Shown one piece after another: positions 6,835 to 56,499 of a stretch of 64,000 nucleotides of DNA. Location of the stretch: contig JACGCM010001793.1 in the NCBI GenBank assembly GCA_014058105.1, forward strand, positions 1,922,001 through 1,986,000, in the 5' to 3' direction. This stretch comes from Kingdonia uniflora. Its lineage: Eukaryota; Streptophyta; Magnoliopsida; Ranunculales; Circaeasteraceae. The notes under the pieces are model-generated. The model ran no database searches. It was not told the DNA's origin and was given only the letters and a program-made list of their open reading frames with translations. The stretch's first letter is position 1; each line of letters begins with the position of its first letter. The position numbers were made by a program, and so were the translations under genes.

Positions 6835-7318
6835 TGATCCAGGAAGATCTAGTGTTCTTGAAGATTTGTCAAAGTCGTTCGAACGACATTGAAAGTCGTT
6901 CGAACGAGTTGACATGTCCTCTAGAATTTAGGCCCAGAGCCATATTTTCGTTCAAACGAGTTGGGTTTCGTTCGAACGACCAGACAACTTTTCTTGGGTT
7001 TAGACCAATTAGTCGTAAAGTTGTTCAAACGACTCCCTAGTTCGTTCGACGACTCTTGCGCAGGTTTTATTTTTGAGGCGTATTTTTGCCTCGAGATGCG
7101 TTCTTTTTGTAATTTTGAGTTCCCTAGTATATAAAGGGATCTTAGGCTATTTTCTTGGGAATGTTAGATCTGAAAGAGTTCTGAGAGAGGCCTAGGGTTT
7201 TGGAGTGATTCATTGTAATCTACTTCATTTTTTTTAAGCAATTGAAGCTTTATTTTCCCAATTGGTGTTCTTTGTGTTTCTCTACTAGCTAAAAGCTTCT
7301 CAATCGTATTGCGGATTA
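6835..7318 (+). repeat. 5' LTR of Reina-A
   Basis: 484 bp starting TGATCCAGGAAGATC and ending GCGGATTA, so the ends form a short inverted repeat (TGATCC/GGATTA). It matches 17504-17989 along its length. It carries a cluster of TTCGAACGA-type palindromic motifs (about 6870-7050) and, near 7130, TATATAAAGGG, a good TATA box for the element promoter. Confidence 0.9.
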
Positions 7319-7357: not shown

Positions 7358-7679
7358 TTGTGGTTTATGGTCCTTACACGTGACCATCTCAAGCAAACGA
7401 AGGAGAAGCTAGTGAGTCCATTGACGATTCATCGTAAACCTAATTCGAAGAAGAAGGCCGATTCGGTGATGGACGAGGCCAGTGATCGACTTACGCTTTT
7501 AGAAATGACAGTTTCTGACCTAACTTCTGCTATAGGGGAGTTGGTCAACCAATTACGTCTTACAAACTTTGCAAAGGCTTCCACTTCGGCGACACGGCAA
7601 GACCGCTCTCATCGGCAAGGTCACTCGATGAGAAAAGAGGTTTTAGAGGGGGATGAAGACATCGATAATACAGGGATAG
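7358..7679 (+). pseudogene. Reina-A gag, N-terminal part (split by CACTA element)
   Basis: The frame begins MWFMVLTRDHLKQTKEK and matches the gag N-terminus of Reina-B (36242 downward: MWFMVSTRDRLKQTKEK). It contains a predicted helical stretch (ALLEMTVSDL-like), then an acidic tail GDEDIDNTGI. At 7679 it is cut by the CACTA element. The frame resumes in register at 13247 with SDSSD, as in Reina-B. Gag would form the virus-like particle in the cytoplasm. Confidence 0.8.
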
Positions 7680-8129
7680 TACTAGGCCAAAAACTAAAAA
7701 TAATGACACTTTTAGAGGCAGATTTATGACTTGGTTGCTTAATTGTAACGATATGACTTCCATTAACAGTCGTTATTTTAGAACCACCGTCATTTTTTAT
7801 TTTTCCCTTCTTATTTTTCACTCAATAAAATTGACTCCTCCTATAGTTAAGAAAACAATTCAATTTCGACTTTAGATACTGTGATTTCTCATTTTATCCC
7901 TTTGATACATCATCTCTCCACAATCCTACTAATTCTACCAGCATCTATCCGCAATCTCAATTCCTCTCTTCTCTCCTTTGAGTGTCCATAGAACCCTTCA
8001 CTACAATAAAAATTACTTTTAATAACACAAATTTGACAGCATATATATATTGAATGCTATTAAAAATGAACACTTATAACATATTTTACATGAATGCTAT
8101 AGTAGCTTATGTTTTTCTCGCACTGGGCA

Positions 8130-8400
8130 ACCATTAACGAGTTCGGTACTGTTTTTGCACTATAATATTTTTTTCTCTGAGCTCTCACCCTTATCTTCCC
8201 CCTCTAAGCTCTCTCCCTCATCTCTCCTAAATCAAACTCGATCTCTATCTGCCATTGATTCAATCAATCATAACTTATTTACTGATTTGAAGGATAACTT
8301 CTTATTCTTCTCTCTCTCACAGTGGAAACGATCGTGAGAAATTGTAAGTTTCTAAGCCCTAATCTCTAATTTGCTCTTATTGTGATTGATTTCTTGTTCT
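8130..8400 (+). other. Leader-like segment inside the CACTA element
   Basis: A CT-rich stretch (8170-8320) ends with TCTCACAGTGGAAACG and then GTAAGTTTCTAAGCCCTAATC, typical of a plant 5' untranslated exon followed by its first intron. It lies upstream of, and in the same orientation as, the captured SEC16 and DRP2 exons. It may be captured promoter or leader sequence. No ATG-initiated frame of significance is joined to it. Confidence 0.35.
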
Positions 8401-8620
8401 CATTTTGACATTTTAGGGATCTTTAATCTCTCTGTTTCTGATTTGAGGGTTTTAATTTTAAGAAGAAGACTTACATAATTCTTGCTATATAATTAAAAAA
8501 AAAATCAGATCTCCTTTTTAACTATATTATCTGCAGCGTCCAATGTTCTTATATAGAATTGTTAACTTATTTATATTTTGATTTCTTATTCCTGAACTGA
8601 ACCGCAGTATATTTTGGCAG

Positions 8621-9175
8621 AGACCAGAGTTATATGAATACTCAATGGTGCTTAGAAATTCGCAGTCAGTGTTGCTACCATTTCAGCCATATATGCTTGA
8701 ATATGCATACATGCTAGCTGAAGTTGACAAAGTTTCAGATTCCATGAAGTAAGAATATACATTTTGAATCTTTATAGTTGTACACAGCCTATTTCAATCA
8801 ATCAGGGGATGTTTTCTTAAGAAAATTTATATCTTGGTGTTATATGGCAGATACTGTCAAGCAATATTAAAGTTTTTGAAGATTGGCCGAGCACCAGAAG
8901 TTGAGACATGGAGACAATTGGTGTCAACGCTTGATGATCGGTTAAGAATCAACCAGCAGGTAATCTTCAAGCACTGTAATTCTAAGTTGAAGTATTCCTT
9001 AATTAGGCTACTTTGTATTGATTCTTTATGAATGTGTTACATCCGGGGTGGATATGGCACCAATTTATCCCCAAAACTTGTGGGTAAATTACTTCCTTTT
9101 ATTGATAGATCAATTTACCGAATTATTGGAGCCTCGCCTCCGCCTGCCCCATTAACATCTCCTGACAGCGTTCAA
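8621..9175 (+). pseudogene. Captured SEC16 exons (COPII coat assembly protein), three-exon fragment
   Basis: Three exons read as a continuous SEC16 segment. Exon 1 (8621-8748) encodes LRNSQSVLLPFQPYM, then YAYMLAEVDKVSD. Exon 2 (8851-8959) encodes YCQAILKFLKIGRAPEVE, then WRQLVSTL. Exon 3 (about 9047-9175) encodes GGYGTNLSPKLVGKLLPF and ends with ASPPPAP. Exons 1 and 2 have good GTAAG/CAG boundaries, and the split K codon joins in frame. The acceptor of exon 3 has lost its AG (CATCCGGGG). SEC16 organises COPII budding at ER exit sites; these residues are from the conserved central domain of plant SEC16A/B. Most of the roughly 1,400-residue protein is absent, so no SEC16 activity is expected. 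Confidence 0.85.
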
Positions 9176-9279
9176 ACAAAATTTACTAGAGGTCTCCCGC
9201 AATCCCCCCTTGACCCTTTGTTAACATTCTATAGTAACTTTCTAGGATATTCGAGGAGTCGAACACCCTGATCTCCCCA

Positions 9280-10317
9280 TACACATATTTTACATAGTTA
9301 TAACCTACCATGTAGACAGACGCACATCTTCTACGTCTTGTAAACCACAGAGAAGTTCTAAGTTCTTAGCGATACTCACCATGTGGGACACTACACCAAA
9401 CTTTTAGAAGATATATAAAGATTAGGAAAACAAAAGAGAAACACTATATAGGTGTGCAGGCCTCATCTAATGAAAGTTAAGATTACATGATTCAAACATG
9501 AAAACAACATTAAAACATAAATAATCAACAACTGCAATAACAATAGTAGATGTTACTTTCTAGATAATTATCTAACGTTGTTGACCATCGAAGGTTGTAT
9601 CGTATTTTTGTCCAAGTTGATCCAACCAATCTCTTCTCTACTCATGTCTTGGATCAACTTATTATTATTAGATCAACACAGCTGTTTATCCTTGAGGTCT
9701 TCTAATTAGCGATCTTTTGTATTATTCCTCAACAAATAAATACAAAGTAACTTTAACCTAAAGCCAATGAGATTCAAGATAGTTAGAACACCTAAATGGA
9801 GATGTCAAAATAAAAGATCTTAACTAGGTTTAATTTACCTTTTGCTATCATGAAACTAGTGTTTGCACCATTAATTTGCTTTTAACAGTACCTGTAAGCT
9901 TGTATATAATTGGAACAATTACATAAATCATAGCACAAACCCATGAAAAAGAATTTAATGAATAAAACATCAAGAACATTAATGAAATAATGGATCACAA
10001 ATAAACACATAATTTATTTTCTAACTTGTTCTGGAAAATGTGAAACCATGTACACTTACTAGATTTAGACATTGATAACATACGAATACACACATTTCAC
10101 TTTCAATTTCTTATATGATGATCCTTCAAGATGAAAGAAACCACCAAGACCCTGTTAGTGTACACATTTATTTGATGTACTGAGCAGTTTAATTGGTCAT
10201 CCTGTTCTAGTAAGTTCAGCCATTGTTAACCCTCTTAGTGCACACATTTATTTGATGGGATACAACTAATGATTATATTATTTCTTACATTTTATTTCTG
10301 GATGTTTTGCTACTCAG
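9280..10317. other. Non-coding interior between the captured genes
   Basis: AT-rich sequence between the SEC16 and DRP2 exons. It contains a CACTACACCAAAC motif at about 9389 and a short repeat, GTACACATTTATTTGATG against GCACACATTTATTTGATG (about 10160 and 10240). It is probably captured intron sequence. No exon was recognised. Confidence 0.5.
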
Positions 10318-12645
10318 CTAACAGGTGAACAAGGTGCTACTCGTGCTCCCATCAGCATCGACTTACACAGGGATGAATCCCTCAATAATAAATCAATCGT
10401 CTTGCAAATCGAGAATAAATCTTAACAAGTTTCTACAAGTAAGTCATCGTACGAATATTTATTTTACCTGTATACCACTAATAGCTCCTAGCTATATTAT
10501 TTCCATGCTCACCATAGAGAGATACAAGTTACAGTCTCATCATATATTCTACATGCCATTATACTCATGAAATCTATGAATAGTGCGACTGGGTTAATTT
10601 GTTTAAATGATACTTTAAAAAACATTTCCTTACTTGTGATAGGTGTGCTTCGGCATTCCCTACAGGATAGGCTAAGCAAGAGTGGCTCTAGTAAGGGTTG
10701 TGCTGATGAAATATACCTCAAATTGCGAACTATTACAGGTTGGTATTTAATCTGTTGCATTTGTAATTGAATTACTCTTATGAGCGAATTATTGATAAAT
10801 TTGTAATATTCCTAATTCAACTAATTCGAATTATTGATGTGCCTGTACTTTATCTATACCAACTATTTGACCTTCTTACCTCTTGTATATCGAACTGTTT
10901 AGATTCAGAATATACCTGCAGAAGGGTTGTTTCTTATTCATGAATTTCCTAGAGAAGATAGTGACCATCGATAAGTTGTAAGCTCTTAAGACAATCATTA
11001 GTGTTAACAATCTTATTATATGTTAAAAAAATGGGGAGAATGTGCTCTATTTTTGTTACCTTACTCAAAATGTGCTCGATCTTTGCTACCATACTTACAG
11101 CTTGTTCTCGCACAAAAATGATTTACACTTTTTACTAATAGGCAAATAGATGCTCTCTATATCATGTGTATATTCAGTAAAAGATAGGTTGGTCTTGTTG
11201 GGAGTCAGCTTGATCTTCACAAACATTAGGAAATCTACATGCGAACTAAAATACTCGTGCATTTATATGTTGTAAAAGTATATATCTGCGGACCTTAGGT
11301 TATTCTAGAGATGATAGATCATACCACTTTTGAGAGAGGTAATTCCTTCTCAAATGCATATTTATATCATTTGGTTGGTTATCTATCATAGTACTATTCT
11401 CGGATTTCCTGCTAACACTATATTTTTCTCAGCTCCACCTTTGAAGCTGATTGATTTAACTGGATTGGATCAGAGGACAATGGATGATGCATTGGTAAGC
11501 AGCTGTTAATCTTCTTCTACCTTTCCAAGTTCTCAGGTTGGCGTCCTTGTTTTTGCGACTGATTTGCTAAAAAAGAGTAGCAAAATGGTATTTTAGTGCA
11601 CTATTTATGCTTCCAGAGCAGCTTTAAGAAAAGACCAAAATAACCTTTTTTATGATACAACTGAGAATATTGAAGTACGTTTTGCTAATCATCAAGGGAT
11701 ATATATATAGTGTTTTCTTAGAAGCTGCTCTGGAATTATAGCTTTTTCTATTTTTATTTTTGGGTGGGGGAGGGTTTGTGATATTAATTTTCTTATAAAC
11801 TACTCAAATCACTGTAATCCCAACATTTCAAATGATCTTGTTTCCAGATTAACGATTATGCTGAACACAGCGATACAATATTGTTAGTTATTATACCTGC
11901 TTTACGGGCACCAAAAATTTCATCTTCTCGAGCCTTGAAGCTGGCTAAGGAGTACGATGCGGAAGGTGGGTTCCCCCTGTCTACTATCTTTTTTCTTTAT
12001 ACTAGTAGAAGGTGATTAAGTTCTTAAAAGACACAATCTTCATCTAAGTGTTTCAATATATTTGCATTGGATGATATATCAAAAATTGGCTTATCGGTTC
12101 TTGAGAAATCGGAAAGTAGCAATATTAGAGTATACCATCCAGCTTACTTAATTGGTAATTTTCCTAGGAATTGTTACATATCTCATAAAAAGGGGCATTC
12201 CTAAATAATAAAAGAGTAGAAGAAAAGAAGTACAAATACAATGCAAATGAATATTTTATTTGTATACCATAGTTTTTTCTTCAAAACTACCAAATAAAAA
12301 TTATCAATATATCTTATTGATTTATTAGATACATGGACCACTAATTTGGTACATCCAATGATCTCTGTAGATGTTGTGATATATTTAAAGCGTATTGAAA
12401 AATTGCTGAGCCATTACATTTGTTGAATTTAATCAATTATTTTTGTTGCCTATCCATTTTTTAGTAAACAATTTATCTTCTATTTGGTGATTACAGGTAC
12501 CAGAACAATTGGTATGATTAGTAAAATAGACAAGGTAGCTTCAGACCAGAAGATCATTGCTGCAGTTCAGGCTCTATTGTTAAACCAAGGTTCACGCAAT
12601 GCATCAGTTATCCAATGGGTTGCTTTAATTGGTCAGTCTGCGTTT
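10318..12645 (+). pseudogene. Captured DRP2-type dynamin exons (GTPase domain fragment)
   Basis: Five exons match plant dynamin-related protein 2: 10318-10438 ([20 protein letters not shown]), 10643-10738 (VLRHSLQDRLSKSG, then EIYLKLRT), 11433-11494 (APPLKLIDLTGLDQRTMDD), 11848-11965 ([16 protein letters not shown], then [15 protein letters not shown]) and 12497 to about 12645 ([15 protein letters not shown], then VQALLLNQG and WVALIGQS). All have GT/AG boundaries and compatible phases. G3 (DLTG for DLPG) and the G4 region (KID) are present; the P-loop exon (G1) and everything after the G domain are missing. A TAA at 10423-10425 interrupts the first exon. Intact DRP2 severs clathrin-coated vesicles; this fragment could not. 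Confidence 0.87.
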
Positions 12646-12779
12646 ATTGCTTTACATTGTCATTTTATGCATCTTTATTGATAGAACTATAAGCTCTCAT
12701 GAACTTGAGACAATGATGGTTCAAATCCATCTAGTTCTAATTGCAAAAATATAGGTAAATTCTTTAAGTAAACTAATTT

Positions 12780-13240
12780 TATTTAATAAAATTTTGAAAT
12801 TTATAATTGCGAGAAGCGACTAAAATCATTGTCAATAATTGTGTCTAATGCGTCAACATTTTTACGTGACAGATAGCACGACTAGTTTGTATGTCGAAAT
12901 TTTTTAGAATTACGATAAATTAGGCGATTTTGGCATCGTAAAATTGTGACGCATCAGACAACAGATAAATAAATTGGAAAATGGAATAAATACGACAAAA
13001 ATAACGACTGATACTTGTGTTTTTTTTTGTGACTCATAAAATGACTCATAAATGTGTAGCAATTTTAACTAAAAACGATAGATATTACGACGTGGTTTAC
13101 AGTCATAATATTGCGGCGCATTTCAAGTCGAAAACATAAAACTATTGCAAAAAGAACAACGTTTTTTTTTACTCAAATAGAAGTCACTTTAGCAAAATAA
13201 TGACTGACAAGACCTATTATTTTTTACTAACTTTGGCCTA
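12780..13240. repeat. Subterminal repeat region of the CACTA element
   Basis: Many short, mostly CG-containing motifs occur in both orientations (GCGACT, CACGACT, ACGACG, TTACGAC, GACTCATAAAATGACTCATAA). This is typical of the region recognised by CACTA transposases. It explains the CG-rich dinucleotide pattern in otherwise AT-rich DNA. Confidence 0.6.
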
Positions 13241-13246
13241 GTGTAG

Positions 13247-14721
13247 CCAGTGATTCTAGTGATGTCAATTCCGTCAAGGAGCGCCCAGGTTTTCGTAAGT
13301 TAATGAATCCTATGCGTAATCTTCATATTGGTTTTAAGATTGAGATTCCAATTTTTGATGGTTCCGTCGATGCTGAGAAATTAGATAATTGGTTAGATAG
13401 GATGGAGAGCTATTTTTCCATTGATGAATATTCAAACGCTCAGATGATTTGCTTCTCTTCTTTAAAATTAATAAGTCACTCACTAACGTGGTGGAAATCC
13501 TATCAGAAACGACATAATGTCGGAAGTCTGAGTTGGAAGGAATTCAAGGTTTTGGTGAGGAAGCAATTATATCTAATTGGGTATGAACAGGAGTGATGGT
13601 ACAAATGGCACAACTTGCGCCAATGGTTTGGGAAATCCGTGTAATAATTTACTACGGAGTTTCATAACCAAGCATTAGTTTTGGATATTGACGTGGAAGA
13701 GTATGATGTATTCATGAAGTATACGGGGGGTTTATCGGAGTCCATTCAAAGAGAATTAAAGCTCTTCAATGTGGCAAATATCGAGGACGCTACCGTTAAA
13801 GCAATTGCCAATGAGGGCAAATACTTGAAGAGCGACAAGAAAGGCGACAAGAACAAGTCGGGGTACAAGGCTAATTGGAAGTTTGATCAGAAAGGGGAGT
13901 CCAATGGAGAGGGGTCGTTATTCAAGGGGGCTATCTGTATTTATTGCAAGGCTAATGAGCATAATTCCAATAGATGTTGGAAACTTTACCCAGAGCTTCG
14001 GCCGAAGGTGGAGAAGGGAAAGAAAGAAAAACGTGCACTAGCTATAATGATTGTGGATCTTTCAGATTTAGATAAGCCAAATCCTAAGCTTACTCTAATT
14101 TTCAAGCAACCTTTAGCGATTGACCAGGTGCATCGGGAAGAACATTTCTTTGTCAGCATCCAGGTGAAGCAGAGCTTAGTCGAGGCCATCATGGATCTGG
14201 GTAGTCAAAAGAATTTAATTTCTGAGGCAGTGGTGAAGAAGATGGGTTTGGCTACTGTGGCTCATCCGAAGCTGTATAGTTTGGGTTGGATTCAGAAAGA
14301 CGCAGAGTTGAAGGTCACTAATAACTGTACCTTCAAGTTTGCGATAACTAAAAAGTTTATTGACGAAGTCACATGTGAGGTAGTTCTGTTGGGCGTGTGT
14401 CAAGTCATCTTGGGTAACCCTTATCTTTGGGACCAAGATGCAATCATTTACCATCGCGCTCGCAAGTATTATTTGGTGAAGGATGGGACTGGGTTTCATA
14501 TTAATGTGTACGAGGAACATATGACTACCAATAAATTGGTAATGACGACTCAGGCAAAGAGGTTGGTTAATTCGAGCGAAAAATTTATTTTGTTGTTGGT
14601 ACGACTGGTTCAAGAGGATCCGTCGGATACGGTATTGTCTACTTTGGCAATGACTCTAACGCAACAAACCAATATGGCAGAGTTGCAAGAGGAGTATGAA
14701 GACTTTTTTCTGGCCACATAA
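13247..14721 (+). pseudogene. Reina-A gag C-terminal part, zinc knuckle and protease
   Basis: The gag frame resumes after the CACTA element: SDSSD, then FDGSVDAEKLDNWLDRMESY, a Retrotrans_gag-type capsid region. A TGA (13594) and two TAA (about 13642) occur where Reina-B has CGA, TAA and CAA. From 13681 a 346-residue open frame holds a CCHC knuckle (CIYCKANEHNSNRC), then the aspartic protease region VEAIMDLGSQKNLIS. The catalytic DTG triad has become DLG, so the protease would be inactive. The frame ends with a TAA at 14719 where Reina-B has GAA. Confidence 0.85.
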
Positions 14722-17503: not shown

Positions 17504-17989
17504 TGATCCAGGAAGATCTAGTATTTTTGAAGATTTGTCAAAGTCGTTCGAACGACATTGAGATTCGTTCGAACGAGTTGACATGCCCTCTGGAATTTTG
17601 GCCCAGAGCCATATTTTTGTTCGAACGAGTTGGATTTTATTTGAATGACCAAGCAACTTTTCTAGGGTTTAGACCAATAAGTCGTAAAGTCGTTCGAACG
17701 ACTCCCTAGTTCGTTCGAACGACTCTGGCGGTGGTTTTATTTATGAGGCATGATTTTTCTTTGAGATGCGTTCTTTTTATAATTTCAAGTTTCCTAGTAT
17801 ATAAAGGGAACTTAGGTTATTTTCTTGGGTATGTTAGATCTGAAAGAGTTCTGAGAGAAGCCTAAGGTTTTGGAGTGATTCATTGTAATCTACTTTGGTT
17901 TTTATTAAGCAATTAAACCTTTATTATCCCAATTGGTGTTCTTCGTGTTTTTTCTACTAACTAATACTTCTCAATAGTATTGTGGATTA
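17504..17989 (+). repeat. 3' LTR of Reina-A
   Basis: 486 bp, TGATCC to GGATTA, aligning with the 5' LTR. It is preceded by the polypurine tract CCTAAAGTGGGGAGCCA and followed by GGAGT (TSD). It carries the same cluster of CGTTCGAACGA motifs. Confidence 0.9.
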
Positions 17990-19755: not shown

Positions 19756-20102
19756 CTAAGCCAACGGACTTCATCTCTCTTCCAACCACAAATAAATGCC
19801 CGCCATATTCATAATAATAATATAAAAAAAACAATCTATTAACTACAACCTTTAAAAAAATCCTTTTTAACAAATTACTTCAACCCCTGTGTTTCATGAA
19901 CATCAACTCCCCTAAGTTATTGTTCCTAAGATTTCAATTCAAACCCACAAAAATACATCAAACCCGTATAAACCCCATTCTTCACAAATAAACACAATCC
20001 TGTCACTTCTTGTCACCCATAATCAGTAATTTTATCAAACACTGCACCTTGATTTCAAACCTTCATATCAATAGAAACCTTTCAGCATTTGATCAAACAT
20101 AA
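19756..20102. other. Spacer left of Tat copy B
   Basis: AT-rich and rich in CAAAC and AACCC. No coding potential and no element end seen. It borders the truncated outer edge of the copy B LTR. Confidence 0.5.
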
Positions 20103-20774
20103 CATAGAATCAATCTTTAATCAAAGGACACAAGTAATTGGCCTAAAGTAAGAACAAACTATAGATAAATATTTGCGTAGAGGCCCGAATGTGACTCTCT
20201 ACGACCTCTGATGAGGATTTTTTAAGATAGATTGTATTACTGAAGAATAAATAACAGGGTTCGAGTACAAAGTATCTAGGTGGTCGAAGGAAAAATGTAA
20301 GGGGTTAGAGATGATTTTTCTAACCCCCTCTTGGTTTCCCCTCTCCTCTATTTATAGAGATACAGGGAGTTGAGTCACCAAGTGTGGGTCAGGATTACAT
20401 GATTACTGTCAGGAAATCCTGGCGAGTAATGGGCGTTGGTCATGTCGGTACTGTCACTGTAACATTTATTGGTAATGTTTCTGAACGGCGCAGTGGTTGA
20501 ACCTGTCACTGTAGCTCCACGGGCCAATCAATACGCCGCCTTATCTGATGAGGTGGTTGTCTGCCTTATCTTGCTTCAATCGTGCGTTAGTAAGGTCAAA
20601 GGATTTATGTTGTAGTATGTTAATCCATTCTCAAAGCTTTGTCTGATGGCGAAGCTTCATCTTTGGGGGATCTCTGGGGAGTCTGTTTTAAAGATTGAGT
20701 GGGCTTTGATATATTTGAGTAGGCTATAAAGTAGGCTTCGACTGACTGTCGAAGGCTACAAGTAGACTACTATA
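20103..20774 (-). repeat. 3' LTR of Tat copy B (outer edge truncated)
   Basis: 672 bp aligning at high identity with 28934-29603, from ATAGAATCAATC to CTACTATA. The outer 45 bp present in the other LTR (from TGTATGGACC) is replaced by unrelated DNA, so the element end was deleted after insertion. TATTTATAGAGATACAGG near 20350 may include the promoter TATA region of the element. Confidence 0.88.
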
Positions 20775-20791
20775 TTCGCCCCCTCTCAGCG
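20775..20791 (-). promoter_or_regulatory. Polypurine tract of Tat copy B
   Basis: On the minus strand CGCTGAGAGGGGGCGAA abuts the 3' LTR. The same GAGGGG(G)CGAT-type tract abuts the LTRs of copies A, C and D. It primes plus-strand DNA synthesis and fixes the element's direction as minus. Confidence 0.8.
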
Positions 20792-26599: not shown

Positions 26600-27482
26600 C
26601 TTTTAAATTCCAAGTACCCTCGTGATTGCTGAATCGAAGGGTCTGATGGTAGGTCGAAGGTATAGCTCGCATGGCGTGAAGACAATCTCATCCGAGTATA
26701 CCGAGGTATTCAGACTTCTTGTCAATGGAGATGAAGTTGGTTTGAAGGGTAATGGGGCCTGAAGTGACGGGTAGGCTGATACGACCAACAACAGCTTCTA
26801 TTGATCCATTGAAACCTTTTAGTTCGATGTTGGCAGCGGTTATGAGGTCTATTTTCTTCATGGTTTGGATTGTTTGAAGAAAGGGGACATCAGCTGCGCT
26901 CCCAGTATCTACGAGCATTGTTTGGAGGATGAGGTTCTTGATCTTAATCATGATGACTAATGAATTGGAATGGGAGAAGCGAACGTGTGATGTATCACAG
27001 TCGATAAAATAAATACCTTCGAGTCGAGGGTGACAGCTTGATTCTGGCAGAAGGGTAGGAAATTTCTCCTGATAGGTGAGCTTGTAGCATTCTTCGATGC
27101 TCTTTCGCTTGCTCTTAGAATGTCCACTGTCTATGTTGTTGACTTCGACAAACTTGACTTTATAGATGTGCACCTCGGCTGGGTCAGTAATAGGGGTGGA
27201 TAAAGATTTGAGGTTGGGCCCATCGAGGTAGCTTAGAATATCAACAATATACTGATTCAAATTTCCTACTCTGAAGATAAGATCAAGAGAGCATTGAAGG
27301 GCAAAACATTTATTGGCATGGTGACAGTTGCACTTATGGTTGGCACAGTAAGGTTCGCCTGGTCTGACTTCGATGGGGAAAGGGATGCGCCAAATGGGGT
27401 CTGCCTGTATGTTTTGGGGGGCAGTGAGTGTAGGTAGAAAAGGCCTTGGTCGCTTCTTGCGAGCTTCGGTGTTGTTATCCAT
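26600..27482 (-). pseudogene. Tat copy B: zinc-binding region, aspartic protease and linker
   Basis: The 264-residue frame 27482-26688 starts MDNNTEARKKRPR. It has a Cys/His cluster (CANHKCNCHHANKC, residues about 48-61) and the protease active site LVDTGSAADV (residues about 207-216), with the catalytic DTG kept. A frame change leads into HAMRAIPSTYHQTLRF (about 26666-26620), the conserved segment that joins protease to RT in Tat and Athila elements. The reading then meets the tandem repeat. The protease would mature Gag in the particle. Apart from the late frame break it is largely open. Confidence 0.85.
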
Positions 27483-27554
27483 GTTGGGGCGCTTGTGGCT
27501 CCCAGTCTCCTGTGAGACAGGAGCGATCAGGGGTGTGGGAGTAGAGTGGGGGTG

Positions 27555-28887: not shown

Positions 28888-29603
28888 TGTATGGACCTAA
28901 CCTCATTTAGAGGCGAAGTTGGACCTCACAACGTAGAATCAATCTTTAATCAAAGGACACAAGCAATTGGCCTAAAGTAAGAACTAACTATAGACAAATA
29001 CTTGCGTAGAGGCCCGAATGTGACTCTCTATGACCTCTGATGAGGATTTTTTAAGACAAATTGTATTACTGAAGAGTAAATAACAGGGTTCGAGTACAAA
29101 GTGTCTAAGTGGTCGAAGGAAAAATGCAAGGGGTTGGAGATTATTTTTCTAACCCCCTCTTGGTTTCCCCTCTCCTCTATTTATAGAGATACAGGGAGCT
29201 GAGTCACCAAGTGTGGGTCAGGATTACATGATTACTGTCAGGAAATCCCGGTGAGTTATGGGCGCTGGTCATGTCGGTACTGTCACTGCAACATTTATTG
29301 GTGATATATCTGAACGGCGCGGTGGTTGGACCTGTCACTGTAGCTGCACGAGCCAATCAATGCGCCGCCTTATCTGATGAGGTGGTTGCCTATCTTATCT
29401 TGCTTCGATCGTGTGTTAGTAAGGTCGAAGGATTTTTGCTGTAGTATGTTAATCCGTTCTTGAAGCTTTGTCTGATGTCGAAGCTTCGTCTTTGGGGGAT
29501 CTCTGGGGAGTCAGTTTTAGAGATTGAGTGGGCGTCGATATATTCGAGTAGGCTGTAAATTAGGCTTCAACTGACTGTCGAAGGCTACGAGTAGGCTACT
29601 ACA
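28888..29603 (-). repeat. 5' LTR of Tat copy B
   Basis: 716 bp; in plus coordinates it starts TGTATGGACC and ends GGCTACTACA. It aligns with 20103-20774 over all but its first 45 bp. It contains TATTTATAGAGATACAGG (about 29178). Differences from the 3' LTR are scattered and mostly transitions, so the insertion is not very recent. Confidence 0.88.
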
Positions 29604-30639
29604 TTCCATATGACAATGATCATCATCCGCCTTCGCTGCCTCATGAATAGTCATACCTTCAAAAGAAGAACAGACTGGATAAGGAAGGGGGAGATCCAGA
29701 AGATGGTTCCCGCAGTAACGAAGTTAGTGTTCTAACACTTTGCAACTATCTTGTTATCCCATACTTGATTTCTGGTGGTCACCATTGTTTATTCACAGAG
29801 ATAGAACTACTTGAAGAATGACAACTGGCGAAACGGCGAGCAGAGTATTTATAGGAGAATAATATTCAATGCTGGGAAGAATTTTCAATAACAATCATTA
29901 AGCATTATGGTCTTGGGAACACAATATCCATACCAATCAATCAATTCAATCCCTTAACCATCACTCAGTCTTCCATAAATACAATTATTTCCTGGATAAA
30001 TCCACATCAGCAAAACACATCATTTAAAATTTTGAAATATCCTTCCATATTCCAATTTATGGACTCAATGGATACTTCTTAACTCAAGCTACTTGTGCCT
30101 TCAATTGCAAGGGGGCGATTGTAGGGACCTGTCCCTCGAGCTATGATAAACTCGAACTGATCCAATACAAAACTCACGTAATATATACGCGACACTATCA
30201 GCAAAGACATATGTACTTCGAGCAGATGAAGAACGTGGCTCGAGTACAACAGATGAAATAGAGCAAGTCAAAGATACCTGTCTCCCATGAACTAGCAGTT
30301 ATAAGTCCAACTTCAACTTGCCCCCACATTCAGGAGAACATGCGCATGTGCGGTAGTAAAAGGAGAGTGAGGTCTATAAAAAGGATGAGTTCCAGAGGAG
30401 AAATGAGAATTTTTCTAGCTCAAGATATCATAAAATTTTAATCAAGCATTAGCCTCAGGCAATAAAAGTTACAGTTACTAAATCCTTAAGCCGAGGCTAT
30501 GGCCTTTACCTATTCAAAGGTTTTTACGTTAATCGTCTGTCATTTTTAGATTGATTTATACTAACTCTTGTCACAGGTATATTTGGTGTAAGAGCTAATT
30601 TCAAACTATTTCAAGCTACTACGAAATTAGGCCATTACA
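29604..30639 (+). mobile_element. Tat-like copy C, 3' end only
   Basis: About 516 bp of internal sequence, a polypurine tract (GCAAGGGGGCGAT, 30107-30119) and a 520-bp LTR (30120-30639). It starts exactly where copy B's 5' LTR ends, so copy B inserted into it or a deletion joined them. No open frame of the antisense set was recognisable in the internal stub. Confidence 0.65.
30120..30639 (+). repeat. 3' LTR of Tat-like copy C
   Basis: Starts TGTAGGGACCTGTCCCTCGAG and ends TTAGGCCATTACA. It is colinear with the copy A LTR (CCTGTCTCCCATGAACTAGC matches CCTGTCTCCCGCGAACTTGC). TCTATAAAAAGGATGAG at about 30385 is a plausible promoter TATA box in the plus orientation. Confidence 0.8.
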
Positions 30640-31221: not shown

Positions 31222-31660
31222 ATAGTAATTATAATGAAAAACTCTAAACCCCTAGGATCTTCCTCAGAACTCTTTCTAGATCTAACATAACCAAACAATG
31301 CCTAGCCTTACCCTTTTTATAAGGGTTACAAGTCTTAGTTCCAAAATATGACAAATATGCCCTTAAACGCCTAAAGAGAAAGGCTGAATTGGGTCTCTGT
31401 TCGAACAGAACAAGATTTTGTTTGAATAAAAAAAATGTATTTGAATACATTTAATTTGTATTCAAATAAAACTACCCAGGCTAAAATGCATTCGAACATA
31501 CATGATTCTATTCGAATAAAACAACTCAGGCTGAAATGTATACGAGTAGACATGATTCTATTCGAATAATACTACTCAGGCTGAAATGTATTCGAATTGA
31601 AAAAGATTCTATTCGAATACAAAAGGGTAAAAAGTCAAAAACACAGATTCTCCTGGATCA
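31222..31660 (-). repeat. 3' LTR of Reina-B (truncated)
   Basis: Aligns from AGTAATTATAATGAAAAACTC to CTCCTGGATCA with the 5' LTR. Contains three direct repeats of about 52 bp (31490-31615) built on CAGGCTGAAATGTATTCGAA. TTTTTATAAGGG (about 31312) mirrors a promoter region. Confidence 0.82.
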
Positions 31661-31663
31661 TGG

Positions 31664-32346
31664 CTCTCCCCTTTAGGAGCCTTAAGCTCTTGCTCAAGCA
31701 AGAACTAGAGATGTAGGATTGTGGATGTGCCCAATTCCTTACTGTACAACTTTGACTTACTAGGTAGCTGACCCTTCTTCCCAACTCGGAACGACCTAAT
31801 ACCACCCCGTCTTGTAGTATTAAATTTCCTCTCTAGAAAACCATTCTCCTGTAATGGATCTTCTCGTTCCATCCATAAGTCATCAACTGACGGTAAGCGA
31901 GTGTCAATTGCAGAGTCTATATCAAAAAGAGACAGCTCATACAACTTCAAATGTTCGACATTAATTACCGAATACATCTTCATAAATGGTGGAAAGTTCA
32001 AATGGAATGCATTGTCACCAATCTTCTTGAGTATCAAAAACGGACCATATCGGATGGGTTTGAGCTTCTTGCCTTCCCCCTTAAGCCGTTCCTTACCCAA
32101 ATGGAACCAAACTAGGCCGCCCTCCTGAAAAGTACACTCAACCAGATGCCTGTCGTCGCGAGCCTTATACTTCGCTTGAGTCTTCTTCAAATGTGATTCT
32201 ACTGCCTCATGAACCTTTCTTATCCTCTTAATAAAATGCTGAACTTTAACCTGCTCATCTTCCTCCTTCCCAGACATCGTCCTGTCGCCAAGACTAAACG
32301 CCAAATCAAAAGGACTTTTGTGGCAAGTACCCGAAACAAACTTCAA
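31664..32346 (-). pseudogene. Reina-B integrase C-terminal domain and chromodomain-like tail
   Basis: A 213-residue open frame: KSPFDLAFSLGDRTM, KKTQAKYKARDDRH, VWFHLGKERLKGEGKKLK, GPFLILKKIGDNAFHLNF, YSVINVEHLKLYE, then FNTTRRGGIRSFRVGKKG, like the diverged chromodomain at the end of chromovirus integrases. It is the longest intact stretch of the element and would direct integration-site choice in the nucleus. Confidence 0.82.
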
Positions 32347-32399
32347 AAGGAGACTTCAGCGTAAAACCATGAATTGCCCCGTTGAACGCAAACTAAAGA

Positions 32400-34753: not shown

Positions 34754-36242
34754 TCAAAGATAAGGGCTACCCAAGATGACTTGACACACGTCCAACGGAA
34801 CCACCTTACATGTCACTTCGTCAATAAACTTCTCAGTAATAGTAAACTTGAATGTACACTGCTTAGTGATCTTCAACTCCGCGTCTTTCTGAATCCAACC
34901 CAAACCATATGGCTTAGGATGAGCCATAGTAGTCAAACCCATCTTCTTTACTACCGCCTTTAAAATTAAATTCTTCTGACTACCCGGATCAATGATGGCC
35001 TCGACTAAGCTCTGCTTTACCTGAATGCTGACATTAAAAAGTTCTTCCCGACTCGCCTCGTCGATAGTTATAGGTTGCTTGAACATTAGAGTAAGCTTAG
35101 GATTTGGCTTATCTAAATTCGGAAGATCCACAATCGCTGCGCCTAGTGCAACATTTCTCTTTCTTGCCCTTCTACTCCTTCGGTTGAAGCTCCGGGTGAA
35201 GTTTCCAATATCTATCTGAATTGTACCCATTAGCCTTACAATGACTACAGATAATCCCCTTGAATAAAGACCCCTCTCCTTTGGACTCCCCTTTCTGATC
35301 AAACTTCCAAGTAGACTTGTACCCCGACCTGCTCTTGTCATCTTTCTTATCACTCTTCAAGTACTTACCTTCAATGGCAATTGCTTTAACCGTAGCGTCT
35401 TTGATATTTTCCACCTTGAAGAGCTTTAATTTTCTTCTAATGGACTCTGACAAGCCCCCCATATACTTCATGAACACCTCGTACTCATCCACATCAATAT
35501 CCAAAACCAACGCTTGGTTATGAAACTTCGTAGTAAATTGTTATACGGATTGCCCAAACCTTTGGCGCAAATTGTGCCATTTGTACCATCGTTCATGTTC
35601 ATACCCAATTGGATAGAATTGCTTCTTCACCAAAACCTTGAATTCTTTCCTACTCAGACTTCCGATATTATGTCCTTTCCGATAGGATTTCTACCACGTT
35701 AGTGAGTGACTTGCAAATTTCAAAGTAGAGAAGCAAATTTTCTAAGTGTTGGAATATTCATAAACAGAAAAATAGGTCTCCAACCTATCTAGCCAATTAT
35801 CAAACTTTTCAGCATCGACGGAACCATCGAATACCAGAATCTCAATCTTAAAGTCAATACAAAGATTACGCATAAGATTCATTAATTTACCCAAACCTGG
35901 GCGCTCCTTGACAGAATCGGCATCACTAGAATCACTATCTATCTCTGTATTATCATCGTCTCCATCCCTTTCCAAAACATTCTTCTTCTTCGAGCGGTCT
36001 CGCCGTTTCGCCGAAGCGGAACCCTTCGCGAGGTTTGTAAGACGCAATTGTTCAACTAACTCCCCTACAGTAGAAGTTAGGTCGGAAACTGTCATTTCCA
36101 AAGTCGTGAGTAGATCGTTGGAATTTCCCATCTCCAAATTGTCATTCTTCTTTGAATTAAGTTTGCAATGGATCTTCAACGAACTCATTAGCTTCTCCTT
36201 CGTTTGCTTGAGACGGTCACGTGTAGAGACCATAAACCACAA
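34754..36242 (-). pseudogene. Reina-B gag, zinc knuckle and protease
   Basis: Gag starts at 36242 (MWFMVSTRDRLKQTKEK) and runs through DSDSSDADSVKERPG and FDGSVDAEKFDNWLDRLETY to 35742. The capsid region continues in 35510-35172 (FMKYMGGLSESIRRKLKLF), and the CCHC knuckle is CSHCKANGYNSDRYW, where the last Cys has changed to Tyr. The protease (34754-35100) has VEAIIDPGSQKNLI: DTG has become DPG, so it is inactive. The uninterrupted SDSSD junction shows the insertion site used by the CACTA element in Reina-A. Confidence 0.84.
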
Positions 36243-36292: not shown

Positions 36293-36763
36293 TACGATTG
36301 AGAAGCTCTAGTTAGCAGAAAAGTACAAAGAACACCAATTGATTTAGAAAAATAAGAGATTCGATTACTTAAAACGAAGTAATTACAATGAAAAACTCTA
36401 AAACCCTGGGTTCTTCCACATAATTTTTTCTAGATCTAACATAATCTAACAATGCCTAGCCTTGCCTATTTTATAAGGGTTATAAGTCCTAGTTACAAAA
36501 TAGGACAAATATGCCCTTAAACACCTAAAGAGAAATGCTCAATTGCGCCTCTGATCGAATATAACAAGTTTCTGTTCGAATAAAAAGATGTATTCAAATA
36601 CATTTAATTTCTATTCGAATAAAACTACTCAGGCTGAAATGTATTCGAATAGACATGAGTCTATTCGAATAAAACTACTCAGGCTTAAATGTATTCAAAT
36701 AGGAAACGATTCTATTAGAATACAAACGGGTAAAAAGTCAAAAACTCCGATCCTCCTGGATCA
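36293..36763 (-). repeat. 5' LTR of Reina-B
   Basis: 471 bp from TAATCCACAATACG to CTCCTGGATCA. Contains about 2.5 copies of the CAGGCTGAAATGTATTCGAATAG repeat (36630-36720), one unit fewer than the 3' LTR. Confidence 0.85.
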
Positions 36764-37334: not shown

Positions 37335-39876
37335 TTACATAATCATGCTCTTTCTTTCGTTATGAAACTCTACATTCTCCGAAGGCAAATTTATCCTTCC
37401 ATCCGAACTCGTTGGAAGGGCAATATTATCGAGCCCCAACAAGTCTCTCGTACTATTTATAATTTTAAACCATTGACTCCCCGGGTCACACTTATTATCT
37501 TTTTCCAAACACTTACACAGGCTCGTAATGATCGTGTTGCTTGAGCTCACATCCATGCACATTGCTCCAAACTTCGACGACAGATGCATTCCGGACTCCG
37601 AAATTTTCTTCCACTGTGATTTGTTACCGTTGCAAAGAATTCCAAGTGTAACGGGCATGCCTATCTTACTGGCTTGAATGCAATAATATGTACCTTTTAA
37701 GAGAATCCTTTGGGGGGTTGTGTAAACCCATGCTTCTGATTTGGAGCATGAGCCTAGTTTAAGGGTTTGTAGCAAAACTTGAGATTGTCTTAAGACACAA
37801 AGTCCAGTTGATGGATGAAAGAGTACATTATATGTTCTCCTTCTCGAAAGACCTGGCCCTGGATACCACAACAAAATTATAAAACATATTAATTTTATTT
37901 TTAATTATTTAGAAAAATCAAAAATTGTTTTATTGTTGAAAAATCGCAAATGATAGTAGAAAAAATGTTGGCTTAAAAGTCACCATCACCAACACCGAGC
38001 TAAATTTAGTGATTTAAAGAGCTTTCTTCATATGGTATATTTCTCTCAAATTTTAGTAAATGACATCTCCATTTGGAGGCCGCGGTTTCAAAGTCTTTTA
38101 CGCCTTTGCATTTGTACAATTTATTTAAGCAAAATTCATTATATAATTTAAAGAAAATATGTGAAATATACCTTGGAAAGGAGCTTGGAGGGCCTTTATC
38201 CTTGAAGAAAAATTTGGACTCCTAGTATCACCCCAATCATTATTCAAAAGCCCATAAGTCTCATCTAAACCCCGAACCCCTTCTCTCAAATAATAACTAC
38301 CCACAAGAGTCCACAAAGCCCAATCCAAGTCCAACTCAGCTGCAACCCCAAACATGCAATTTAAATACCTATTATCATTCACATTTCCCCCTCTTTGATC
38401 AACCCCAAACTCACTTATAAACAATGGCCATCCCTTTTCCAACAAAAACCCTGCTTTCCTCATCATAGTATTTACCACTTTTCCACAAACTTCGTTCGAG
38501 TTCCCGGTCTCCCACGCTATCCCGTCTGAGAATCCGTACCAGTGTGCCTCGAATACAAGCTTTCCAGAAAACGTTAGGTTTAGCGGTCGTTTAGCTATGA
38601 AGCTAAAGTCTTTGTCGTATTCCAATCCCGAAAGTATAACAATGACGTTCGGATTTGCGGCATGCACCGCTTCCGCTCCCTCCTGCATGTACCTATTGTT
38701 AAGTAGATAATTAGTGAAGCAACATAAGTGACGGGATAATTAGTGAAGCAACATTACCTGTACCAAGTACTAATGTTTTGCTTAGGTCCTCTAAGCTCGT
38801 TTCGAAGGCTCATACCAACGACATGGCTTGTGTTCACGAACATGTTGGCCATTCGGGAAAGACCCTTGATCCATAAATCCGGGTTGAAATACTTGTCCCC
38901 AAAGAACCCGTTTCCATCAGAGCTACTACAACACCAACCCGGTTTGCTAATATGGTTGTCTAATATGACCATTATTTTGTGATTGGCAAGGCTCGATACA
39001 ACAACCTGAAATTAAAAATTAACAAGTTAAAAATAAAAAAGTTGGTCAATCCGAATCTCTCAGCATTTATGTTGTTTCATGTAATAATTAAATTAATCAA
39101 TCATGCTTTGTGTATGCTAATCTTCAAAACATAAACGTTTCTTGCACGTTTAGTTTTAAGGATAGACTTGCCCCATAAGAAATCTTAACTACACATTTTT
39201 TCAATATCAAATAAATATTATCGGTATATTTGACCATTAAAATAGACCTTATCTGTATATCCATTTGAAGGCAGAAAACGTTGTTTATAAAATATTCAAA
39301 TATAAAATCAAAAAATAAAGATGTTACGAGGTGCTTTTGCATTAAAATACGGCATAAGATAAACATAACAAAGATAATCATTGTTCATGGTGGTTACGAG
39401 ATTATTTTACTTTTGAATTAAGAATATAGTGTTACCTGAAATGCTTGGATGAGGGAGTAATCAAGAAAACAAGGGTTGTTGACTTCAATACCAGCAATCG
39501 ACTCATTGAGGCCTAAGCTCTCCAACGATTTCCTAACCGTAAGTGAGGACAAGGAGTTATTAGTGGCTAAAAACAACGGCCATGTGAAGCGTACACAATT
39601 ATACCCCATGATCCCAATTCTTTCCGATATTACATCCACGGGCTGCTTGCTTAACCCCTCAGCAACCATAGTTTCAAGATGTGATGCCCAATTCACGCAC
39701 GCTAGTTTCACCCGGGTACCGTTTTCATCAACGATCCATCTTGAACTTGTGTGTAGTGGTAAAGCCTTTACATGTTGATGCAGATAATTAGCATGGAGAG
39801 ATAAGAGAATGAGAGAAAGAAAGAGTTTGAAAGAAACATGTTTTCTCATACTTAGTTGTTTTTTGTTACTCCTCAA
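37335..39876 (-). CDS. Glycoside hydrolase family 5 (cellulase-type) protein with C-terminal lectin-like domain
   Basis: Four exons: 39876-39436, 39005-38758, 38692-38172 and 37858-37335. All introns are GT/AG, phases agree, and the sum is 1,734 nt (577 residues). The N-terminus has a signal peptide (FKLFLSLILLSLHANYL), probably cleaved near residue 38, so the protein is secreted. GH5 features: WASHLETMVAEGL, NCVRFTWPL, acid/base Glu217 in SLRNELRG, HWYGFSD, and nucleophile Glu324 in FISEFGVD. Residues from about 404 (exon 4) form a ricin-B or beta-trefoil-like region (NVLFHPSTGLCVL, WVYTTPQRI, GSQWFKI). Several such GH5 genes exist in land plants, presumed to act on cell-wall beta-glucans or mannans; the true substrate is not known. 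The first ATG is chosen because it follows a TATA box; a second Met at codon 10 is possible. No defect is seen. Confidence 0.93.
38693..38757 (-). other. 65-bp intron of the GH5 gene made of a tandem duplication
   Basis: Intron 2 contains two copies of GATAATTAGTGAAGCAACAT (in plus orientation at about 38706 and 38735) that fill most of its length. Donor AG|GTAATG and acceptor AATAG|GT are normal. The duplication probably arose by replication slippage and brings the intron to a spliceable length. Confidence 0.8.
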
Positions 39877-39908
39877 GGGTTTTGAGTCTTTAAGAATAAA
39901 TATTAAGG

Positions 39909-39926
39909 AGTCTTATTTATATGTGT
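39909..39926 (-). promoter_or_regulatory. TATA box of the GH5 gene
   Basis: On the minus strand CACATATAAATAAGAC lies about 40 nt before the first ATG. If it is used with the normal 30-nt spacing, the leader is very short, which would favour the second Met (codon 10) as the main start. No other promoter element is certain. Confidence 0.5.
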
Positions 39927-40762: not shown

Positions 40763-41522
40763 TTACTCGCCTGAGAGCGAGGGAGAGGGGGGGGAGAGAG
40801 AAAAATTACATAAGCGTTGGCCTACAAAATAACCAGAAATAGGGGGACCAACTCCCCTAGCTGCTAAAGAGTGAGCTGCAGTGTTCCAACTACGGTTAAC
40901 ATACTCGAATCTAAAATCTAAAAAAAAAAATCTGCCGCAGCTCTCGTATCCGGAGCAAGGGTAAGAGCTCCCCAACTAAGTTCCTCTAACCTCTCTCTGA
41001 AGGCTCGAGCGATCCTCTAGCAGTCAGACAAGGCAAAATCCTCTACAAACCTAAATGTCGAGCCGCCTCCAGTCCTCTAAGCGTTGCTAGCGCCTCAGCC
41101 TCTTCAGCGTCAGCTGCTCTGGCCCGTTCGTAACCTGCACAGATAAAAAAGTTTGAGTGATTTTTAATAGTGAAACCCAACCCCCCAGGCTTATCCTGGG
41201 CGTTCCAGGAGGCATCCACGTTGACAATATGCCATCCCTCATGGACTTGGTATTGGGTCAGAGTCTGCCTAATGGAGAGGTTTGGGCTCGAGGGAGTTTG
41301 GGGAATGGTGCAGAGCTTTTTTGCATGATGCGGAATATCCATCATTGTTTTAGCTTGTTGCTCGAATACGAGAGAGTTCCTGTTGTTCCAGATAACAAAA
41401 GATGTGGTGCTAAAAGAGCTGCAATAAGATGAAAAATTAGAAACATGCCCATGATTTTGAAAGCTTCTTAGGAGAGTGATAGGAACCGATTTTGTGTAGC
41501 TCCAGTTTCTAAAGTCGATCAA
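40763..41522 (-). pseudogene. LINE-1 RNase H domain
   Basis: Frames 41522-41043 and 40975-40763 encode the plant LINE RNase H: VNVDASWNAQDKPGGLGFTI, AAYERARAADAEEAEALATL-like helix, then FEYVNRSWNTAAHSLAARG. The DAS and E residues of the active site are present. A frameshift near 41040 divides it. An RNase H at the end of ORF2 is typical of plant L1 elements. Confidence 0.85.
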
Positions 41523-41529
41523 GAGGTCT

Positions 41530-43900
41530 GACTCGAGCTAGATATCGCGGATCTTGGGGAAGAAGAATAAAGCGTGGGTAGTAGTTTCCTCTTTCAAGCC
41601 GCATCGGGGGCAGTTAGTATCCCAATCAACGTGACCATGCCAAAAGTTGAATTTGGTAGGGATACTATTATGAACGATTTTCCAAAGAAAGAGTTGGATG
41701 TAGAAGGGGACTTGGAGTTTCTAAATTTTTTCTCAGGGTATAGAGGTTGGGGTTGTTTGAGGGAGGGCGAAGAAATCTCCAGGTGAAGTGTCGGTCAAAA
41801 AATTGTGAACAGACTGGACCGTAAGGATGCCGTTATTTTCCTTAGTCCATCTTAGGACATTTTTCGCAGGATGTTTGCTGGGAGGGATACGGATGATAAT
41901 GTCGGCAAGGTCAGGGTGAAAGGTGGATTGGATGAGGTGTGTTTTCCAGGTTTGATTATTGGTCCAAATGAGGTCTGCAACTTTGGTGACTTCTCTGACA
42001 GCGGGGATGGGGCCAGTTGGTCTCCCGAATCTAATACCCGTGATCCATGGTTCTAACCAGAGGTCGACGCTTTCTCCGTCTCATATATGTCAGCGGAGCT
42101 CAGACCATATGTTATTACGGGCTTTAAGGATACCTTTCTTGATCCAGGAGTCGCCAGGCTTGGGGAGGGCCTGCATAACGAAGTCTTTGGGGGTATAATT
42201 TGCTTCCAGGTTTTTAGCCCATACCTTATCTGGCCATAAGAGTTTGGTCATCAGGGCTTGATTATGGTTAAAAGTGGTGCGAATGTCAAGACCCCCAAAC
42301 TGAGTGGGTTTACAAAATTTTTTCCATTTGATAAGGTGGGCCTTGGGTCTGCCTTCGTGATTTGACCCCCAAAGAAAATACGCGTTTATAGAGTCAAGTT
42401 GTTTGTAAGTTTTACGGGGGAGGGGGAAAATGGACATGAGGATGGTTGGAATTGCTGAGTTAACAGCTTTAATAAGGGTGAGGCTGCCGGCTTGGGAAAG
42501 GAATTTTGCTTTCCAGCCCTCAATCCGCTTAGAAACCCTGGTGATAATATCCTGGAAGTTAAGGTTCTTGGCACGGTCAAAAGTAAGAGGAGCCCCAAGG
42601 TATTTGTCCCCAGATGAATCTCTCTTGATGTGTAAGATCCTCTGGATGATCTTATGATGGCGGTGATGCCCGTTCTTGCTGAAGATGATGTAGGATTTGT
42701 CAAAATTAATCTCCTGGCCTGACACTTTGGTGAAGGTGTCCAGGGGCTGCTTGAGGGTGTCAGCTTCGATAAGGGTAGCATTGCAGAAGATAAAGTTGTC
42801 ATTCGTAAAAAGGAGGTGAGAGACTGGGGTGCTGCCTCTAGCAGTCTTAATACCATGTAAAATACTTTTTTTTTCTTTTTGGAGTAGTATTCGGGATAAG
42901 ACTTCTGAGCAAATAAGGAATAGGGAAAGGGAGAGGGGGTCGCCTTTGCGAATGCTCCGCCTAGGTTTTAGGAAACCATAAGGAGAGCCGTCTAAGGTGA
43001 AAGAGAGTGCGGTGGTGGATATGCATTGGTGGACCCAGTTGCACCATTTATCACAGAAACCCATGGCACGCATCGTGTCCTCTAGGAAATCCAACTCCAC
43101 GCGATCGAAAGCTTTACTAAGGTTGAGCTTTATGGCCATGCAGTTACGCTTTCCTTTCTTCTTCTTCAAGGTCTTGAGAATCTCTTGGGCCATAATGATA
43201 TTGTCAAAAAAATTCCGGCCAGGAATGAAGGCATTCTGGGATGGGGAGATAATCTTGTTGAGGAGGGGCCGGAGCCGCGTGGGAAAAATCTTGGTGATGA
43301 TCTTAAGCTTGACGTTGTAGAGGTTGATGGGTCTGAAGTACTTTGGCTTCTCCGGTTGTTTGTGCTTGTGGGGTGTGACGGTGTGAAAAGTTCTCTGAAG
43401 TGTTAGATGTAGGTATCACCGATGTCTTTTCTCCCCTGCCCCCAAGAGCCGTCGGGGCGCCTGATCTTTCTGATGGTGTTAACACGTCAGCGCCCAAGGG
43501 TAGACAGGTGGAAGAATTTTGTATTCCGGTCGCCGTCCCGGAGCCACGTTTTGCGCGATTTCTCGCGCCATATGGATTCTTCTATGTCTAGAAGGTTATA
43601 GAGACGGCGTTGGAGGCTTTGTTCAATAGTGGTGTTGGCTTCGTTAGGTTGCTCTTTCTAGATGTTGGCAATCTGGTTACGGATGTTGAGAATAGAGATT
43701 GGGTTGGCATTGAATTCCTCTTTGTTCCTGGCGGAAAGCTCCTTTTTGGTATGTCTGAGCTTGTTACACAACCGAAGCGGTCGAGATTCCGGCTGGTCTT
43801 TTACTCAAGCTTGGTTGATGATCTCTTGTAGCGAGCGTGCTTGGTCCAGGCGGAAGAGGAAGTAGAATTTCTTGGGAAAATTGATTTTCTTCGGTTCAAT
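41530..43900 (-). pseudogene. LINE-1 reverse transcriptase
   Basis: The 367-residue open frame 43193-42090 covers most of the RT: KLNLSKAFDRVELDFLEDTM, SPYGFLKPRRSIRKGDPLS, GLDIRTTFNHNQALMTKLLW. The catalytic YADD box has become FTND (LLFTNDNFIF), so both the Tyr and one Asp are lost and polymerase activity is excluded. The N-terminal fingers (43900-43200) and the zf-RVT region (42080-41530) are in other frames with stops. Confidence 0.88.
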
Positions 43901-56463: not shown

Positions 56464-56499
56464 AGCCTTAAGCTTTGTAGCAAAAACATATGTAGGGTT

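Follow-up and report, generated by a model that had tools for sequence, protein, structure and literature searches.

What has brought exons of a SEC16-type gene and of a DRP2-type dynamin gene together, in tandem and in the same orientation, in the genome of Kingdonia uniflora, an early-branching eudicot? The stretch concerned, hereafter the window, comprises 64,000 nucleotides of contig JACGCM010001793.1 (assembly GCA_014058105.1; positions 1,922,001 to 1,986,000, forward strand), and the original prediction, made from its letters, was that these exons belong to a Pack-CACTA element, a CACTA transposon that has captured pieces of host genes. We found that they are enclosed in a non-autonomous CACTA element of 5,564 bp at 7680-13243, whose insertion point is the gag region of a Ty3-type long terminal repeat (LTR) retrotransposon, termed A below. 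We consider it highly probable that this is a Pack-CACTA element that carries captured SEC16-type and DRP2 pieces and was moved in trans into the older retrotransposon.

Ends of the element and its superfamily

The ends of the element are exact because a sister retrotransposon in the same window, B, which lies on the opposite strand, keeps the uninterrupted insertion site. When the element flanks, joined through a single TAG, are aligned to 35806-36040 of the minus strand, 197 of 253 positions are identical (E 8e-56), and all 18 gap positions fall upstream of the joint, with none at the joint itself. This proof of the ends is independent of any transposon library, and it upholds the predicted 3-bp TAG duplication on both flanks. 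It likewise vindicates the predicted precision of the ends, if not their uniform CACTA: the right terminal inverted repeat, CACTAGGCCAAA, has an exact CACTA, whereas the left, TACTAGGCCAAA, reads TACTA, one mismatch away, and the two arms agree at 11 of 12 positions with a single mismatch.

The gag frame of retrotransposon A resumes 3' of the element, and the frame at 13231-13593 scores 29.5 bits against Pfam Ty3_capsid (cut-off 29.1); zero Pfam matches above cut-off were obtained for the gag frame on the 5' side (7358-7726), its counterpart in B (35745-36242) and a further long frame at 13648-14718. Retrotransposon B has LTRs at 31224-31568 and 36378-36722, with a Pfam SH3_Tf2-1 domain within 31708-32355.

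Inverted repeats that start with CACTA, on the left with the one mismatch, and a 3-bp TAG duplication are the marks of the CACTA superfamily, and host coding DNA (TPR_Sec16 and Dynamin_N) between such ends without a transposase domain is that of a Pack-CACTA. The 22 non-exon frames of at least 50 amino acids within the element contain no transposase or other Pfam domain, as is expected of a non-autonomous copy; two further frames, which cross its edges, are retrotransposon sequence. When the entire window was scanned for pairs of CACTA-like 12-bp ends in inverted orientation, with at most one mismatch between arms, 300-15,000 bp apart and flanked by a 3-bp duplication, two pairs were returned, namely that of the element and one at 36068/46175 with poorer CACTA ends. 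A search for a sister copy of the element inside the window led to the rejection of this candidate, as besides the match to itself there are only short ones, the best outside the element having an E of 0.025.

Several observations weigh against the assignment. The left end is TACTA rather than CACTA, the inverted repeat is only 12 bp long, the inverted match stopping there, and the 12-base end pattern occurs at chance level in the window (4 found against 4.75 expected at up to two mismatches); there is also no second copy of the element within the window, and a mobile family is thus not demonstrated. The first three points might favor a different transposon superfamily that makes 3-bp duplications, or a host segment framed by chance repeats. 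Chance framing is, however, excluded by the empty site, and the exact CACTA of the right end and a subterminal motif common to both ends speak against another superfamily, such that we regard this alternative as highly improbable. The motif in question, AAWTAAYGAC, has four exact copies in the 64 kb, two per element end, against 0.96 expected, and one of 100 shuffles reached at least four; it has few copies and was picked post hoc, which tempers its weight.

Captured exons and the probable DRP2 donor

All captured exons are on the plus strand and keep their introns, as had been predicted, with canonical GT/AG dinucleotides at the edges examined; the claim of intron boundaries throughout fails at SEC16 exon 3, where the acceptor AG has been lost and GG stands instead. 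The arrangement proposed at the outset, i.e., SEC16 and DRP2 exons in the same orientation behind a leader-like segment free of ATG, is supported. Continuation of these exons outside the element, named beforehand as the result that would count against capture, was sought by tblastn of the whole window with five donor-type proteins (P0123, P0019, P0121, P0122 and P0124) and rejected, the matches being confined to 8618-12651.

The three exons of the first piece, when spliced, match Pfam TPR_Sec16 with 45.6 bits (cut-off 22) over profile positions 185-295 of 298, which agrees with the prediction of three SEC16 exons; on the strength of this domain we take the gene to be SEC16. Only two relatives of the piece were found by sequence, the better of which is a Camellia protein (63% over 99%) that also displays TPR_Sec16, and a PDB search returned two matches with a best E of 0.38.

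The second piece corresponds to part of the dynamin G domain (Dynamin_N, 72.5 bits; cut-off 27) and is matched in the PDB by 40 dynamin-family sequences, the best being Arabidopsis DRP1A. Its relatives are of the DRP2 type; the best one of comparable length matches at 73% over 99% of the query, and the best of the long ones, from Kingdonia, at 82%. Instead of the five exons originally counted, there are six pieces, namely a 33-nt tail of exon 1, exons 2-5 and a truncated exon 6, numbered from the first captured exon.

For long DRP2-type proteins, we used the best 120 of 1,015 matches (611-1,047 amino acids, several per species), all of which cover the DRP2 part of the query only and none the SEC16 part. 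The closest among these is a protein of Kingdonia uniflora itself (P0123, GIB67_037121), with 172 of 195 residues identical, followed by P0124 of Macleaya cordata with 152 of 195. Furthermore, 13 residues of P0123, TILGFPANTIFFS, are encoded directly 5' of DRP2 exon 4, in what is an intron by comparison, and their core, GFPANTIF, occurs in P0123 alone (1 of the 120). This stretch of P0123 may be a gene-model error of the Kingdonia annotation, in which case the underlying DNA would be a shared intron. Because P0123 is both the closest protein and the one sharing TILGFPANTIFFS with the intron of the element, Kingdonia or a species very near to it is very probably the host, and GIB67_037121 probably the DRP2 donor.

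A second decayed partial DRP2 is present in Kingdonia uniflora (P0019, GIB67_025091, 204 amino acids), with near-identical exon coverage and exon 3 missing. Over 135 shared columns, P0019 differs from P0123 at 17 and the element fragment at 15, with zero differences in common. As the two share no differences, DRP2 pieces have probably been copied independently more than once in this species.

Capture joint and proposed origin

Where the DRP2 piece begins, at its 5' joint, coding homology stops short and is preceded by a 29-bp filler, the source-like copy of which is found 80 bp downstream in DRP2 intron 1. A templated filler of this kind suggests template switching during interrupted gap repair. 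Since the captured pieces keep their introns, they were acquired from genomic DNA, and RNA-mediated capture was rejected. A gap-repair mechanism of Rubin and Levy is cited in an excerpt of PMC8978399, and fusion of neighboring elements is given as an alternative capture model in excerpts of PMC13317346 and PMC8903248.

We posit the following course of events. A Pack-CACTA element would have taken up the leader-like segment and, complete with introns, genomic pieces from a SEC16-type gene and from a DRP2 gene of its own host, and, to judge from the filler, template switching in gap repair would have been the route of capture. A transposase acting in trans, which we invoke because no transposase domain was found inside the element, would then have moved it into the gag of the older LTR retrotransposon, with duplication of the TAG. 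The captured pieces would by now be under neutral drift and be transcribed incidentally, if at all. The K2P (Kimura two-parameter) distance between the LTRs of A is 0.14, or 0.07 per LTR lineage, and replacement changes of the DRP2 piece relative to P0123 are estimated at ~22-24 over ~430 sites. As the resulting ~0.05 per site is below 0.07, the values fit capture and insertion later than, or near the time of, the insertion of retrotransposon A itself, which is a rough order and no date.

Decay of the dynamin piece and prospects of expression

The features of a functional DRP2, i.e., a P-loop, DLPG and an open frame, are all missing: the homology begins past the P-loop, the DLPGL found in 120 of 120 relatives has become DLTGL, and an in-frame TAA lies in exon 2 (10423-10425), yet there is no frameshift across the DRP2 exons. 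Judged by its sequence, this piece is a decayed fragment and no dynamin gene. With column conservation computed among 119 relatives, 11 of its 24 differences from P0123, counting the stop, lie in columns that are at least 97% conserved, which constitute 118 of the 196 columns (p=0.21), whereas the corresponding count for P0123 against the consensus is 5 of 27 differences (p=1.3e-5). The changes in the element, on this count, do not avoid conserved residues. Two points qualify this result, namely that the direct contrast of 11/24 with 5/27 is not significant (Fisher p=0.068) and that the protein set comprises the 120 top scorers, in which species are represented several times. Of the 24 changes, 14 could be C>T or G>A transitions, which fits the decay of methylated DNA but is a count without a control; the CpG observed/expected ratio of the captured exons, 0.55, is not clearly lower than the 0.63 of the window and therefore lends no added support.

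This decay bears directly on whether the element could act as an expressed chimeric gene, with the leader-like segment as promoter and 5' exon and SEC16 exons 1-2 spliced in frame to DRP2 exon 2, the product being a regulatory RNA or a small protein of a new kind. Such a gene would be in keeping with a leader that lacks ATG across 8190-8341 and is followed by GTAAGT, with the canonical exon edges (that of the SEC16 exon 3 acceptor excepted), with a hypothetical joint of SEC16 exon 2 to DRP2 exon 2 that stays in frame for 106 amino acids until the TAA, and with the chimeric spliced RNAs documented for the soybean element Tgm-Express1 in an excerpt of PMC1947982. However, the first ATG of the hypothetical transcript would start an out-of-frame upstream frame of 27 amino acids, the dynamin part is cut by the TAA, lacks the P-loop, has DLTG and has changed without avoiding conserved sites, and the element sits within a retrotransposon; we therefore deem an expressed chimeric gene unlikely. 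Transcription of the element is possible, as far as its DNA can tell, and a full SEC16-dynamin protein would not be, given that the TAA interrupts DRP2 exon 2, that the P-loop was not captured and that SEC16 exon 3 has lost its acceptor.

Alternatively, small RNAs from the element might repress the parental SEC16 and DRP2 genes. While this is generally plausible for captured fragments, and the element shares 172 of 195 residues with its probable DRP2 donor, the exons of both genes share a single strand without an inverted arrangement, and we hold this explanation to be more doubtful still than a chimeric gene. A leader-driven transcript that yields the 106-residue SEC16-dynamin chimera, or whose RNA modulates two genes from the two extremes of membrane traffic, is comparably doubtful; if it were true, the decayed P0019 piece would be a sign that DRP2 has been captured repeatedly. 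Neutral decay of captured pieces in a Pack-CACTA element remains our preferred account.

Other parts of the element

The CT-rich leader-like segment is possibly a captured 5' untranslated exon; an 85-amino-acid frame that spans it has no Pfam match. Neither this segment nor the ~1 kb that separates the SEC16 exons from those of DRP2 has a Pfam match or could be traced to a source, a point against our account of the element. A second, different CACTA-type end, CACTACAATAAAA, is found at 7999 (0.88 matches expected by chance at one mismatch) and has no partner within the window; it might be the remnant of another, neighboring element. The right end of the element (12840-13243) has a CpG observed/expected ratio of 1.77, against the window average of 0.63. 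Just past the DRP2 fragment, at 12683-12739, a sequence resembling a tRNA, though shortened in its D-arm and anticodon region, marginally exceeds the Rfam cut-off (30 bits against 29); ARAGORN predicts zero tRNA in the window. DRP2 intron 4 displays a short hairpin-ended sequence at 11606-11740, CTTCCAGAGCAGCTT ... AAGCTGCTCTGGAA, that resembles a small inverted-repeat element.

Table 1. Coordinates, in the window, of the CACTA element, its parts and its retrotransposon surroundings
Feature	Position	Strand	Basis or remark
Left LTR of retrotransposon A	6835..7318	+	limits from BLAST match
TAG target-site duplication, left copy, 3 bp	7677..7679	.	empty site in sister retrotransposon
Non-autonomous CACTA element	7680..13243	+	12-bp inverted ends agreeing at 11/12, TAG on both flanks, uninterrupted site in B
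Left terminal inverted repeat TACTAGGCCAAA	7680..7691	+	end comparison
Subterminal motif AAWTAAYGAC, left	7698..7778	.	at 7698 (+) and at 7769 (-)
Additional CACTA-type end of another kind, CACTACAATAAAA, with two AATGCTAT repeats	7999..8113	+	weak; right limit by eye
CT-rich leader-like segment	8170..8343	+	GTAAGT follows at 8344; left limit by eye
SEC16 fragment exon 1	8621..8748	+	GGCAG before, GTAAGA after
SEC16 fragment exon 2	8851..8959	+	GGCAG before, GTAATC after
SEC16 fragment exon 3	9047..9175	+	ATCCGG before; homology stops at ~9175
29-bp filler at DRP2 5' capture joint	10149..10177	+	27/29 identical to 10229-10257 in DRP2 intron 1
DRP2 exon 1 tail, 33 nt (VLSSLIGHPVL)	10177..10209	+	without P-loop; donor GTAAGT
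DRP2 exon 2	10318..10438	+	in-frame TAA at 10423-10425
DRP2 exon 3	10643..10738	+	
DRP2 exon 4	11433..11494	+	DLPG to DLTG; upstream intron end encodes TILGFPANTIFFS
DRP2 exon 5	11848..11965	+	
DRP2 exon 6, truncated at ~12651	12497..12651	+	
Subterminal motif AAWTAAYGAC, right	12999..13204	.	at 12999 (+) and at 13195 (+)
Right terminal inverted repeat CACTAGGCCAAA	13232..13243	-	read as reverse complement
TAG target-site duplication, right copy	13244..13246	.	empty site in sister retrotransposon
Continuation of the gag frame of A, 3' of element	13247..13593	+	Pfam Ty3_capsid
Right LTR of retrotransposon A	17504..17989	+	BLAST match
Uninterrupted insertion site in sister retrotransposon B	35806..36040	-	alignment of joined flanks

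Other features of the window

A 680-bp direct repeat (20098-20777 and 28927-29606, 92% identical) encloses gag-like frames, as judged by eye, and is perhaps a third LTR retrotransposon; the frame at 26691-27554 between the repeats has zero Pfam matches. Two reverse transcriptase remnants (41046-43415 and 55378-56514, both on the minus strand; Pfam RVT_1 and RVT_3) resemble, by eye, long interspersed nuclear elements (LINEs). The minus strand probably carries, at 37335-39912, a glycosyl hydrolase family 5 gene of the host, with Pfam Cellulase on 38128-38739 and, by eye, a start resembling a signal peptide in the frame at 39418-39912. Finally, a frame of 184 amino acids on the minus strand (57324-57875) contains an internal repeat (79% DNA identity) and is without a Pfam match.

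Relation to known cases of CACTA capture

The tandem gene pair had been singled out as the feature that stands out at this locus, a view weakened by the multi-gene capture by CACTA elements reported in excerpts of PMC1947982 and PMC8903248. The soybean Tgm-Express1 is, according to the excerpt of PMC1947982 (Zabala and Vodkin 2007), a 5.7-kb CACTA element in which five unrelated genes are represented by exons and introns and for which chimeric splicing has been shown. As it carries five genes, two genes in tandem on one strand are inside the known range of CACTA capture. The Kingdonia element is like it in its similar size, in the presence of exons and introns from several unrelated host genes and in the retention of splice sites; it differs in having two identified genes rather than five and in its site in a retrotransposon rather than in intron 2 of F3H. 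Chimeric RNAs are on record for Tgm-Express1. The Pack-CACTA elements of Arabidopsis and maize, as presented in an excerpt of PMC8903248, also have CACTA ends around coding DNA without a transposase, the maize ones being often multi-locus; the end used there for Arabidopsis is CACTACAA, against CACTAGGCC here. Captured pieces of host genes are likewise a feature of Chenopodium CACTA elements in the excerpt of PMC8978399, though of other genes and in a position 5' to the coding regions of the elements themselves; in the present case, no such coding region was found. A limited literature search found no report of CACTA capture of a SEC16-dynamin pair, which says little, and no paper about Kingdonia by title with regard to transposable elements of Kingdonia uniflora.

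The finding is real and ordinary in kind, a clean example of a known process. As a fossil of capture it is unusually clean, with ends that an empty site elsewhere in the window proves exact, a DRP2 donor that can be named and a joint that can be read, and the filler at this joint bears on how CACTA elements acquire genes. It adds a probable case from an early-branching eudicot to those of soybean, Arabidopsis, maize and Chenopodium, and leaves the general picture unchanged.

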